Source: Scytolyngbya sp. HA4215-MV1 (GTDB lineage Bacteria; Cyanobacteriota; Cyanobacteriia; Leptolyngbyales; Leptolyngbyaceae). From it: DNA of 64,000 nucleotides. The notes under the pieces were generated by a model that was not told the DNA's origin, did not search any database, and worked only from the letters and a program-made list of their open reading frames with translations. Shown here piece by piece: positions 15,490 to 51,812 of the stretch (position 1 is its first letter; each line of letters opens with the position of its first letter). Both the position numbers and the translations under genes were made by a program. The stretch lies in contig JAHHIA010000008.1 of assembly GCA_019359045.1 (NCBI GenBank), forward strand, positions 1-64,000. Reading direction: 5' to 3'.

Positions 15490-16353
15490 ATGCCACTAGA
15501 TGCCAAAATGCCGTCTTTGCTTTCTCATTCCAATCATTGGCTGGCTTTAGTGATTGGCAACTCTCGACTGCATTGGGCATGGTTCATAGATGCTACGCTT
15601 CAATATGCCTGGGACACTTCTTATTTGTCGCCTGCGATCGTTCAACAGTTGTTGGCAAGTGGGCTGAACTTTGCAGCCAGTGCTGAAATGGGATTGCCTT
15701 GGATAAAAGCAATGCCCGACTTGCCTGCATTTCCCATCGGCAACCTGTGGCTGGCTTCCGTGGTGCCTGCCCAAACCGAACTCTGGCAAAGCAGTTACCC
15801 CACCCAAGTCATTACACTGGAGCAAATACCGCTCCGGCATACTTATGCCACGCTGGGCATCGATCGGGCACTCGCGGTTTGGGGAGCGATCGTGACCTGG
15901 GGGAGTCCCGTGTTGGTGATGGATGCTGGCACCGCCTTCACCTTTACCGGAGCCGATGCCAACCACAATTTGGTCGGCGGAGCAATTTTGCCAGGCATGG
16001 GTTTACAGTTTCAGGCGTTGGGACAAGCCACGGCTGCATTACCGTTGCTGGACTCCCAAACTTTGCAGAAATTTCCTAATCGTTGGGCAACCAACACTTC
16101 CGAGGCGATCGCCAGCGGTATCATCCATACCTTGCTGGCAGGCATCCAAAGTTTTGTCGAAGACTGGTGGCACCAGTTTCCCAACAGTCCCGTTGTGTTG
16201 ACGGGAGGAGACAGCCGGGGGGTAATGGATGCACTCAAGACCCAGAAACCTTCAATGGCAGCCAGAATAATGCGCGACCCGGATCTCATTTTTTGGGGCG
16301 TGCGATCGCTCCGCAATCTCGCAACCCAAAACGATTCTCAGCTTCGGTTCTAG
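15490..16353 (+). CDS. coaX: Type III pantothenate kinase
   Basis: CoaX phosphorylates pantothenate, the first step of coenzyme A synthesis. The 287-residue protein shows the acetate-kinase-fold signatures of type III enzymes: N-terminal LALVIGNSRLHWAWF (the phosphate loop, with D replaced by G as N-S), IDRALAVWGAI, VLVMDAGTAFTFTG, GGAILPGMGLQFQAL and C-terminal VVLTGGDSRGVMDAL. Length is typical. It is divergent from flv3 and convergent with the hydrolase gene at 16391. A later in-frame ATG (15508) could also be the start. Type III enzymes need a monovalent cation and are not inhibited by CoA; this is family knowledge. Confidence 0.9.
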   Translation: MPLDAKMPSLLSHSNHWLALVIGNSRLHWAWFIDATLQYAWDTSYLSPAIVQQLLASGLNFAASAEMGLPWIKAMPDLPAFPIGNLWLASVVPAQTELWQSSYPTQVITLEQIPLRHTYATLGIDRALAVWGAIVTWGSPVLVMDAGTAFTFTGADANHNLVGGAILPGMGLQFQALGQATAALPLLDSQTLQKFPNRWATNTSEAIASGIIHTLLAGIQSFVEDWWHQFPNSPVVLTGGDSRGVMDALKTQKPSMAARIMRDPDLIFWGVRSLRNLATQNDSQLRF

Positions 16354-38440: not shown

Positions 38441-38616
38441 TCACTGTGCTACTAAGCTTTAAACTCTTTGATATTCTGTCTCAATCCAAGTCGTTGTAGC
38501 ACGTTATAAAAAGTCACAATAAAAGTTAACTGATCGCCCCAATCGAGCCAGTACTTTAGGAGTTCGCGGTTCATGATGGGCTGTGAGCACTCGTCAACTT
38601 AAATCTTTTCATGCCG

Positions 38617-39004
38617 ATGTCTACTTCCCAAACTCGTCAATCCGTTTACGAAGGTGGTTGCCATTGTGGCGCAGTTCGCTTTCGGGTCACTGTTTCAGAC
38701 TATAGAGTGCAAGATTGTAATTGTTCGATTTGTCGCAAAAAGGGATTTTTGCATTTGATTATACCTGCTGAAAATTTTACGCTGCTTTCTGGGGACGATC
38801 GGCTCAGTACTTACACTTTCAATACTGGAATTGCCAAGCATTTATTTTGTCAGGTGTGTGGAGTGCATTCGTTTTATCGTCCCCGCGCATCCTGATGGCA
38901 TTGATGTCAATGTGCGATGTCTCGATGGCAATGTGCTTGCCCACTTCAATATCGAACCCTTTGATGGGGAAAATTGGGAGCAAAACGTAGAGAGTATTCG
39001 CTAA
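38617..39004 (+). pseudogene. GFA-family zinc protein, frameshifted
   Basis: The gene starts MSTSQTRQSVYEGGCHCGAV and has the GFA-family zinc ligands (CHCGAV, CNCSICRKKG, CQVCG). The first frame stops at 38893-38895 after FYRPRAS. One frame over, the sequence continues GVPAHPDGIDVNVRCLDG...NVESIR to a stop at 39002-39004, which is the expected family C terminus. Removing one base near 38878 restores FYVPAHPDG. Either the gene is a recent pseudogene or the read has a one-base error. GFA proteins are related to S-hydroxymethylglutathione synthase, but most have unknown roles. Confidence 0.8.
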
Positions 39005-39014
39005 AATTACCTGC

Positions 39015-41345
39015 TCAGCTTCCTGACAGTCGATTAGCAGCATTTGACTTGGACTGGAATCCTTTACCAGAAGTTTTCTCACCTGAGACCGTTTCCTCCA
39101 TGATGGCAATGTAGGTATCCCATAACAAAAGCATGATGGCAAACGCAATAAGCGCGATCGCTTCTGGTTTGTTCAGCAATTCTGCTTTAGGTGCCTGACT
39201 AATACCGGGAGGGGCTGTTTCTCCAAGGGGAGCAAGTTCTATGGAGTCTGGTTCGATAAGCGTCGATTCTACACGATCGTCTTGGGGTAGCCCGGTTGCT
39301 GGAAGTTCCGGCATTGAAGTTTCAGGGGTGGAAATATCATCGTTCTGAGCCATATTACTGCCTTCAGATGTGGCTGCCACATCCATTTGAACGTAATTTT
39401 CAGATTGAATGCAATTTTCTGGCTGAATACGATGTTCGAGCTGAATCGGTTCTACATTCTGAATCGAGATCTCTTCTTGCCCAAAAATCAGTGCGGTATC
39501 AGAGATAACCTCTGATTCTAGATCGAGAAATAGGGATTCTGAAATCTCTTTTATTTCTGATATTTCGTCCTCTCCTTCTAATATTTCATCATCGTCTTCT
39601 GGCAAAGAAAACGATAAATTATCCAGATCGGTAAGCGATTCTATTACGGATACTTCACCAGCATTCTCTAATAAAGAGAACGATAAACTATCTGGCTCTG
39701 AAGGCTCTTCAATGGGCATAGTTACCTCGTTCTCTTCTAGCAAAGAGAACGATAAATCGTCCAACCCTAAAACCTCCGCTGGTTCTGATATGTCATTGTG
39801 ATTTTCCAGCAAAGAGAACGATAAGCTATCTGGCTCTAAAACCCCTTCCGGTGGTAGTGCTGCATCATCAATTTCCGGCAAAGCCAACGATAGAGCATCC
39901 GACACAGCACTTTCTTCTGCTTCTGATATATCGTCACAATTCTCTAATAAGGAGAATGATAGGGTATCTGATTCTAGAGGTACTTCGATCGGTAATGTCA
40001 CCCTGCTTTCTTCTAGAAAAGCAACCGATAGAGCATCTGGCTCTAAGATCTCCTCTATCGTAGACATTTCGCTATTATCCTCCAGTAAAGATAATAATAG
40101 CGTATCTGGCTCCAAAACTTCCGGGGGTTCTAATATCTCATCATTATCTTCAATTAAAGAAAACGATAGATTATCTGATTCTAAAGGCTTCTCAATTGAG
40201 AATGTAGCATCGCTCTCTTCTAACAATGCCAGTGAGAGATCATCTGATTCTGAAAATTCCGAGATCGTGGATACTTCATTGTTCTCATCTAACAAGGAGA
40301 AGGATAGAGGCGCTGGCTTTGAAATCTCCTCTGTTTCTGATAGCTCATTGCTATTTTTTAAAACCGATGAGTCATCTAGCTCCAAAGATTCTTCGATTGG
40401 TAAAGTTGTATTGTTCTCTTCTAGCAACGCAAACGATAACGCATCGGGCTCTGAAATTTCTTCTGTAGCAGGCATGGCATCGATCGTCTCTAATTCAGAG
40501 AACGATACAGCCTCGGATATCGGAGTTTCTTCAGACGACGTAAATGTTTCGTCAATCGCATCCTGTAAAGAAAAGATTGACCCATCGAACTCTGAAACTT
40601 CTTCGTTTTGGGTTGGTTCAATGGCATCCACTAAACCAAAAGATAAAGAATCGGATGTTGAAACCGCTTCTACATCCGGCATTGCAAGATTCGTATCTTG
40701 CCAAGCAAAAGATGAAGCATCCAGTTCTGAGATGTCTTCTTCGGTTGCAAGGGTCTGATTGCTCTCATCCTGAAAAGCGAATGATGAAACGTGTGACTCT
40801 AAAACTTCATCGACTACAGGTGCGTTTTCATCAACATCTTGCAACGAAAAGGTTGCCAGATCAGAGGGTGCAACCTTTTCACCCAAAAGCTCTGAATCCT
40901 CAACACTCAGGACATTTTGAACTATCTTTTCCTCGTGTCGAGGGATCGGAGCAGCCTCCTCTATTTCTGTTCTTTCAGTCACAACCTCTTGTTGATCAGA
41001 AGCAGGGGATATATCAGATTCAGATATTAATGGAGAAGAATCAGATTGGGGTAGAGAGAGGGATATTTTTTCGTACCAATTGATCGATTTTTGCCCCAAC
41101 CTCCGCCCATAAATCTGAACCAATTCAATATTTGGGCTTTGCAAATTGGTTAGGACTTGTTGAACTAAATTGACTGCAGGCGTTTGATTAATAATTCGCT
41201 CTGCTTCTAATAAGACATGTAAACAATTACTTTTCCAATGTGTTCTTACAGCGACATTTCGGGATTTCAATAGATGGTTTAAAATTGCGGCGATCGCTCT
41301 AGGCTCCCCCCGTTTTGCCAGTTCTAAAATGTCTGATTGAGACAT
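39015..41345 (-). CDS. Acidic 23-residue-repeat membrane protein, unknown function
   Basis: A 776-residue protein. Residues ~1-90 (SDILELAKRGEPRAIAAILN...) are a domain found at the N terminus of several cyanobacterial proteins, of unknown role. From about 165 to 570 there are roughly 19 imperfect repeats of about 23 residues with consensus E-(P/S)-D-x-L-S-F-S-L-L-E-(D/E)-N, then an acidic linker. The region is very acidic, with almost no Lys or Arg. A single membrane segment lies near the C terminus (ALIAFAIMLLLWDTYIAI), followed by a short basic tail (GEKTSGKGFQSKSN). The last residues overlap none of the neighbours but end 10 nt from the GFA gene. ATG 41345 is preferred over TTG 41360. I do not know its function; a scaffold is a guess. 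Confidence 0.75.
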   Translation of the reverse strand: MSQSDILELAKRGEPRAIAAILNHLLKSRNVAVRTHWKSNCLHVLLEAERIINQTPAVNLVQQVLTNLQSPNIELVQIYGRRLGQKSINWYEKISLSLPQSDSSPLISESDISPASDQQEVVTERTEIEEAAPIPRHEEKIVQNVLSVEDSELLGEKVAPSDLATFSLQDVDENAPVVDEVLESHVSSFAFQDESNQTLATEEDISELDASSFAWQDTNLAMPDVEAVSTSDSLSFGLVDAIEPTQNEEVSEFDGSIFSLQDAIDETFTSSEETPISEAVSFSELETIDAMPATEEISEPDALSFALLEENNTTLPIEESLELDDSSVLKNSNELSETEEISKPAPLSFSLLDENNEVSTISEFSESDDLSLALLEESDATFSIEKPLESDNLSFSLIEDNDEILEPPEVLEPDTLLLSLLEDNSEMSTIEEILEPDALSVAFLEESRVTLPIEVPLESDTLSFSLLENCDDISEAEESAVSDALSLALPEIDDAALPPEGVLEPDSLSFSLLENHNDISEPAEVLGLDDLSFSLLEENEVTMPIEEPSEPDSLSFSLLENAGEVSVIESLTDLDNLSFSLPEDDDEILEGEDEISEIKEISESLFLDLESEVISDTALIFGQEEISIQNVEPIQLEHRIQPENCIQSENYVQMDVAATSEGSNMAQNDDISTPETSMPELPATGLPQDDRVESTLIEPDSIELAPLGETAPPGISQAPKAELLNKPEAIALIAFAIMLLLWDTYIAIMEETVSGEKTSGKGFQSKSNAANRLSGS

Positions 41346-41576
41346 AAACGCCCCCGCCAATGCAACTCAAAAACTGGAAATTCAGACAAGCCACCGCTTA
41401 AAAATAACAAGATTTAAATGGCAATTTAATCTCATTGTTAAGCCGAACTTGAGAAATCAGGCTTCGTTTTTTATTAAAATCCCATTTTGAGCAGCTGAAC
41501 TTCACTGAATCCCTTTAATTTTCTCACAGCCTGTTCCCTCGGATGCTGTTTCTGGAGAGGGAGATTTTTAGGGAGC

Positions 41577-50792: not shown

Positions 50793-51812
50793 ATGGCTCC
50801 TGCTGTTCTCATTCATAAGCTCCAAAAACGCTACGGTACTACAGATGCCGTCAAAGATGTCTCGCTTCAAGTCGAAGCGGGAGAAATCTTTGGATTGCTC
50901 GGTCCAAACGGAGCCGGAAAAACAACCACCCTGCGTTGTCTTTGTACACTAACCCAGCCGAATGCCGGAACCCTTGAGGTATCCGGCATTTCTGTGGTAG
51001 AGAATCCTCGTTTGGTACGACAACACTTGGGCTATGTGGCGCAAGAAGTTGCTCTAGATAAAGTACTGACTGGACGAGAACTGTTAGAGTTACAGGCATC
51101 GCTCTACCACTTGCCCCGTGCCGTGATTAAGACACGCATTAATACGGTGATTCAGCTACTGGGATTAGAGGCTTGGGCAGACAACAAAACTGGCACCTAT
51201 TCGGGCGGGATTCGCAAACGCTTAGATCTTGCGGCTGGATTGCTGCACCAACCCGATGTGCTGGTGCTGGATGAACCAACTGTCGGCTTAGATATTGAAA
51301 GCCGGGTAGCCGTATGGAACTTTTTGCGACAGCTACGCGAGCAGGGAACGACGGTATTGCTGACCAGCCATTATCTAGAGGAAGTGGATGCTCTGGCGGA
51401 TCGGGTGGCAATTATTGACCAGGGTGTGGTGATTGCGGCAGATACGCCTTCGGCATTAAAGGATCAGGTGGGGGGCGATCGTGTAACGCTCCGGATTCGC
51501 GAATTTGCTCCCCTGGCGGAAGCAGAGCAAGCCAAATCTTTGTTGCAAACTTTACCCTTCGTGCAAGAGGCTTTGATTAACTCGGCACAGGGGAACTCGT
51601 TGAATCTGGTGGTTGCCGCGCAAAGCGATGCCCTGATTACGATTCAACAGACTCTGCAAACAGCCGGATTACCGACGTTTGGCATTGCCCAGTCACGTCC
51701 CAGTTTGGATGATGTGTATCTAGCAGCAACGGGGCGGACTTTGCTGGATGCAGAGTTGGCAGCCTCTAGTAGCCGTGATCCCAAAGCGGAACGCAAGAAA
51801 AATATGCGATGA
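50793..51812 (+). CDS. ABC-2 exporter ATP-binding protein (DrrA-like)
   Basis: A 339-residue ABC ATPase: Walker A GPNGAGKTT near residue 39, the Q-loop CTLTQPNAG region, signature YSGGIRKRLDL, Walker B VLVLDEP and the H-loop TSHYLEEVD. A C-terminal extension (about 225-339) is typical of DrrA-type exporters. The permease gene follows 81 nt later. In cyanobacteria such a pair is often found after ctaA-ctaB. The substrate is unknown; a role in oxidase assembly is only suggested by position. Confidence 0.93.
   Translation: MAPAVLIHKLQKRYGTTDAVKDVSLQVEAGEIFGLLGPNGAGKTTTLRCLCTLTQPNAGTLEVSGISVVENPRLVRQHLGYVAQEVALDKVLTGRELLELQASLYHLPRAVIKTRINTVIQLLGLEAWADNKTGTYSGGIRKRLDLAAGLLHQPDVLVLDEPTVGLDIESRVAVWNFLRQLREQGTTVLLTSHYLEEVDALADRVAIIDQGVVIAADTPSALKDQVGGDRVTLRIREFAPLAEAEQAKSLLQTLPFVQEALINSAQGNSLNLVVAAQSDALITIQQTLQTAGLPTFGIAQSRPSLDDVYLAATGRTLLDAELAASSSRDPKAERKKNMR

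Follow-up and report, generated by a model that had tools for sequence, protein, structure and literature searches.

The window analyzed here is a 64,000-nucleotide stretch of DNA from the cyanobacterium Scytolyngbya sp. HA4215-MV1 (contig JAHHIA010000008.1, positions 1 to 64,000), and the gene that concerns us is a long minus-strand open reading frame encoding a head domain, an acidic linker that contains tandem repeats, a membrane helix, and a short tail (Table 1). An in-frame TTG at 41360 is a possible alternative start. Ten bases separate the stop codon of the gene from the end of a convergent gene of the GFA type; the frame of that neighbor breaks near 38880, after which a different frame stays open until a stop at 39002 to 39004, and the break could be either a real lesion or a sequencing error. 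Promoter-like and terminator-like sites were no more frequent than, or about as frequent as, expected.

Table 1. Features of the repeat gene and its convergent neighbor (positions in the window)
Feature	Position	Strand	Description or basis
Whole repeat gene	39015..41345	−	Open reading frame of 776 codons plus stop, ATG start
Head domain, aa 1-95	41061..41345	−	Paralogues and relatives; AlphaFold block means 90-98 over aa 1-100
Whole acidic linker, about aa 96-720	39186..41060	−	Low-confidence prediction throughout
Repeat region, aa 155-590	39576..40883	−	19 units of ~23 residues, E-P-D-x-LSFSLLE type
Membrane helix motif P-E-x13-W-x-x-Y, aa 727-745	39111..39167	−	Spacing shared with family rows; model helix
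Short tail, aa 752-776, replacing the family's winged helix-turn-helix	39018..39092	−	Family profile match stops early
Convergent GFA-type gene, frame broken (neighbor, not part of the repeat protein)	38611..39004	+	Pfam GFA match

An earlier sequence-only reading of this DNA had described the protein as about 19 acidic repeats of 23 residues between a cyanobacterial N-terminal domain and a single C-terminal membrane anchor with a basic tail, a plan that it took to be without parallel and that a match to a characterized repeat family would have called into question. Such a match did not appear: Pfam and NCBIfam gave no family for the protein at E values up to 10, the best match among solved chains had an E value of only 0.2, and the literature searches returned no paper on it. 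One further search for a known repeat or domain family found none and returned weak matches only.

The repeat count of that reading held up. All 19 units can be aligned in a single register, which was set partly by eye, with a spacing of 23 residues save one of 24 and one of 21, and the commonest letters within the unit are D8, L10, S11, F12, S13, L14, L15, and E16. The substitution-score autocorrelation of aa 161 to 625 peaked at lags of 69, 23, and 46 (0.77, 0.69, and 0.62, respectively), and the best value over all lags in 500 shuffled controls never exceeded −0.05. A hidden Markov model built from the 19 units found 19 matches above 5 bits in the linker and none in 30 shuffles. The acidic character also proved real, the linker carrying a net charge of −151 over 622 residues (aa 96 to 717). 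At the DNA level the repeats have drifted apart, pairs of units one to six apart being 42 to 71% identical (among 12 units); Tandem Repeats Finder did not report the 69-base unit, and the only repeat that it listed there was a 46-base stretch of period 21 immediately after the last unit. When a profile of the unit was run against 388 cyanobacterial genomes, only the genome of origin was hit (0 of 387 others at E ≤ 1e-6), in a search whose sensitivity was lowered because MAFFT had set the alignment partly out of register (92 columns for rows of 69).

The strict spacing of 23 residues and the hydrophobic core of every unit could also be the mark of a regular folded rod or solenoid acting as a stiff spacer. 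We consider this very improbable, as AlphaFold placed neither helix nor strand in the repeat region, and nearly all of aa 116 to 720 had a pLDDT below 50. No other alignment row covers the linker, so that the low pLDDT is weak evidence for disorder and counts less against a rod than it would if the alignment had depth in that region; Asp and Glu make up about a quarter of the linker, which also fits a rod poorly.

The repeats have been conserved as well as repeated, a point on which the sequence-only reading had staked itself. In register, 12 units gave a pN/pS of 0.50 (pS of 0.68), compared with a mean of 0.96 and a minimum of 0.92 in 50 off-register draws; over all 19 units the whole-unit ratio was weaker, at 0.64. 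The dN/dS ratio was 0.11 inside the D-x-LSFSLLE stretch and 0.39 outside it, a contrast that is partly circular because the stretch was picked for being conserved. All of these ratios are rough, since synonymous changes are near saturation, and as long-term averages they may reach back to a time before the loss of a C-terminal domain described below. Taken at that value, they indicate that the repeat units are old and constrained. Because docking sites would show constraint, we count the difference between the registers in favor of a docking role.

The N-terminal domain is indeed cyanobacterial and is not confined to this gene. Its fold is predicted with high confidence (Table 1) as helix, helix, two strands, helix, two strands, in a model of aa 1 to 100 computed with 29 other head rows. 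A head profile matched aa 1 to 94 of the protein at an E value of 3e-33, with the window row itself in the profile, and the head was also matched pairwise, independently of the profile. Heads lie at seven places in the genome of origin at E < 0.001, the window gene included, and in 34 of 38 other genomes (35 of 39 counting its own). A Pfam scan of 30 head rows gave nothing below an E value of 0.014, and Foldseek gave no match to the head at E ≤ 0.001. Structural comparison left the fold of the head ambiguous among those listed, the KH, BolA, and ring-building-motif folds included: the best Z was 8.6, followed by many unrelated small alpha/beta domains at about 6 to 8.

Within the same genome, relatives of the head are joined to a protein kinase with ankyrin repeats, to an ATPase part of the STAND/NB-ARC type (below Pfam cut-offs), and to a PGA_cap domain. 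The head precedes varied parts in L002, L003, L170, L171, L172, and L173, all of that genome, and in L012 from elsewhere; a DUF1574-like part stands behind several head copies, and a TrkA-like part was judged by eye in another genome. In L170 (G000:C7) the ankyrin array behind the head and kinase is very regular, with near-identical stretches. From its occurrence the head looks like a general cyanobacterial adaptor module that deserves a family entry of its own, and its union with kinase, ATPase, PGA_cap, and TrkA-like parts suggests that it is cytoplasmic.

At the other end of the protein, the AlphaFold model contains one hydrophobic helix (aa 727 to 754), in agreement with the single anchor proposed earlier. 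The C-terminal 89 residues matched proteins in 10 of 38 other genomes, and all ten of these proteins also carry the head (L059 at an E value of 6.5e-6). Nine of the ten have a further C-terminal domain, which is a winged helix-turn-helix (HTH) in the AlphaFold model of L091; HTH-type Pfam matches of the full members fall below cut-offs. A longer C-terminal query hit 8 of 57 other genomes, in every case at a place belonging to the same group of proteins. The spacing P-[E/K]-x13-W-x-x-Y in the helix is shared by the window protein and all 31 family rows (29 distinct members, one duplicate, and one cut by its contig). There is thus a family whose plan is an alpha/beta head of about 95 residues, an acidic linker of 49 to 1533 residues, a helix with this spacing, and usually a winged HTH, and we found no entry for it in Pfam or NCBIfam. 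The comparisons identify the window gene as a diverged member of this cyanobacterial family, so the claim of a plan without parallel fell: other cyanobacteria share it, with linkers that differ in sequence and length.

At E ≤ 1e-5, a profile of helix plus HTH matched 180 of the 388 genomes from this class, many of them through the HTH alone; matches that also cover the helix (starting at model position 1 to 3) occur in at least 47 of the 388, counted by hand among the matches listed. Named carriers include Leptolyngbyaceae and Oculatellaceae, examples being L090 from Leptolyngbyaceae cyanobacterium C42_A2020_001 and L096 from Leptolyngbya sp. FACHB-8. Among 30 helix-plus-HTH loci, 26 have the head (23 within the locus itself and three, those of G025, G028, and G076, once the stretch was extended to L057, L052, and L175), three are short frames with helix and HTH and no head (L082, L087, and L089), and one (G049) could not be judged. 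In a tree of 68 heads, the window head grouped with 28 of 29 heads of the HTH family and with two heads of other architecture at a support of 91/96, in an analysis whose bootstrap had not settled and in which no starred branch holds the window; by path, the nearest row to the window is a head outside the family. We looked for conserved gene order around the window gene and found none, the nearby matches being single genes: the protein at 50793 to 51812 (24 to 32% identity), GFA near L056, 31031 to 32110 near L098, and 15490 to 16353 near L052.

What sets the window protein apart within its family is the missing winged HTH. The family profile matched its C terminus only to model position 43 of 88 (13.2 bits, with a best score of 3.3 in 200 shuffles), which makes it an HTH-less relative rather than a full member, and a search of the other two frames behind the stop found no hidden HTH above shuffles. 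Directly after the stop, the letters NFSEYS recall the family's NFSxWS, a resemblance that the profile does not register. In place of the domain stand the 25 residues TVSGEKTSGKGFQSKSNAANRLSGS, so that the tail foreseen by the sequence-only reading is present and its basic character is only mild.

The missing domain, present in nine of ten relatives, raises the possibility that the gene stopped working when the HTH was lost and is becoming a pseudogene, its repeats a relic under weak constraint. The broken frame of the neighboring GFA gene would suit such decay, and the genomes compared include no second species of the genus that could show conservation. We nevertheless regard decay as unlikely: 776 codons remain open, the nearly invariant positions of the head are given as residues of the window protein itself, and the unit pN/pS speaks for constraint. 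The second HTH-less relative, L059, moreover indicates that head and helix can persist alone. On sequence grounds, then, the window protein does not stand alone: it is related to an uncatalogued family of cyanobacteria but lacks the HTH and carries a repeat specific to its lineage.

The conserved ends of this family enclose a linker that changes fast and keeps its charge. In the 29 members and the window (L177, which repeats L084, was dropped, and L174, its gene cut off by the contig end, is not represented), linkers run from 49 to 1533 residues with net charges from 0 to −463, and longer linkers are more acidic per residue (rho of −0.76, n = 30, uncorrected for kinship). Periodicity is seen in eight of the nine linkers of at least 268 residues (none of 100 shuffles scored as high), the exception being L051 (49 of 100); none of the 21 shorter ones is periodic at that level (3 to 82 of 100 shuffles as high). 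The duplicate L177 scored 1 of 100 against 0 for its twin L084. The best lags differ, at 29 in L052, 18 in L056, 15 in L057, 44 in L096, and 8 in L098, and the unit profile of the window matched none of the other family linkers above shuffles (14 best rows). From the differing periods and sequences we infer a separate origin of the members' repeats.

Acidic repeats of their own, in the same linker, are also seen in L052, L056, L057, L175, L084, L096, and L098. Two members of one genus, L057 and L175, are 96% identical in the head and 93% at the C terminus and only 72% identical in the linker, with 190 gap columns; gaps of many residues fall within the repeats. It is possible, if somewhat doubtful, that separate lineages (seven have their own acidic linker repeats, one genus being counted once) each built different acidic tandem repeats into the same linker under selection for length, charge, and spaced hydrophobic cores and not for sequence. 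That would make the linker a tunable electrostatic tether that connects a cytoplasmic adaptor head to the membrane and, in full members, to a winged HTH on the far side of a single-pass helix. In any case, with linkers of about 50 to 1500 residues, the family provides ready-made material for studying the evolution and function of disordered tethers.

For the window protein itself we tentatively favor a flexible negative tether that holds the head off the membrane, with the LSFSLLE cores as weak repeated docking sites, in a diverged family member without the HTH. The helix would serve as the anchor, leaving the head in the cytoplasm, and the linker would act as a flexible, negatively charged tether keeping the head away from the bilayer, its length and charge mattering more than its exact sequence. 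In the window lineage, a partner may make weak contact with the regularly spaced cores one after another; candidates are a different protein with a head domain, the protein's own head, or a basic surface of some kind. The unit presumably arose long ago by tandem duplication and was then kept by selection. In favor of a tether we count the wide range of linker length and charge, the differing periods, the divergence of the linker between conserved ends within one genus, the greater acidity of longer linkers, and the low pLDDT; the relatives that join the head to a protein kinase favor a head on the inside.

The acidity of the linker could instead make it an electrostatic decoy, a nucleic-acid mimic that folds back on the head (and on the winged HTH in full members) and tunes DNA or RNA binding. 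Head net charge does rise with linker length (rho of 0.46, P = 0.01, n = 30), although the correlation is weak and uncorrected for kinship; the stretch behind the helix averages +2.6 (30 rows, window tail included); and KH-type and other RNA-linked domains are among the structural matches of the head, at Z below 9, although such values are common for small alpha/beta domains. As the window copy has no HTH and nucleic-acid binding is hypothetical, we think a decoy quite improbable.

The tether reading assigns the protein an orientation, which in full members meets a difficulty. The C-terminal winged-HTH domain (..WSxxxDPDGIAWxY..) occurs widely among cyanobacteria (L099, L112, L114, and L169), where it likewise forms the last part of a P-type ATPase, of a response regulator, and of small proteins that have hydrophobic stretches near the N terminus. 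Its presence on a response regulator and a P-type ATPase suggests that the HTH, too, is cytoplasmic. The charges beside the helix (means of −0.7 before and −2.9 after, in 30 rows) favor a C terminus on the outside. A single-pass helix would put head and HTH of full members on opposite sides, in conflict with the cytoplasmic hints for both, and if that arrangement is true the winged HTH is placed across the membrane from the head. The conflict does not touch the window protein, because it has no HTH.

The closest system is the family itself, which shares with the window protein the head, the acidic linker, and the P-[E/K]-x13-W-x-x-Y helix in the same order and differs from it in carrying the winged HTH and in lacking, in the 14 best rows of other linkers, the 23-residue unit. 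The C-terminal linker of FtsZ is a fast-changing disordered linker between conserved ends in a bacterial protein. The window family resembles it in having conserved ends and a linker variable in length and sequence, but the window protein, unlike FtsZ, has a membrane helix, a strong negative charge, and tandem repeats. In regulators of the CadC/ToxR type, which are bound to the membrane, an N-terminal, cytoplasmic, DNA-binding winged HTH is joined to a membrane helix. Full family members likewise join a winged HTH to one membrane helix, but theirs is C-terminal, and the window copy has none. The Pfam models of a further group, the effector-associated adaptor domains of multicellular bacteria, matched none of the 30 head rows at E ≤ 0.1. 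These are reported to be small N-terminal domains on kinases and STAND-like ATPases (PMC7159879), and the head domain is like them in its small size, its N-terminal position, and its occurrence in multicellular cyanobacteria on a kinase and an ATPase-like part of STAND type.
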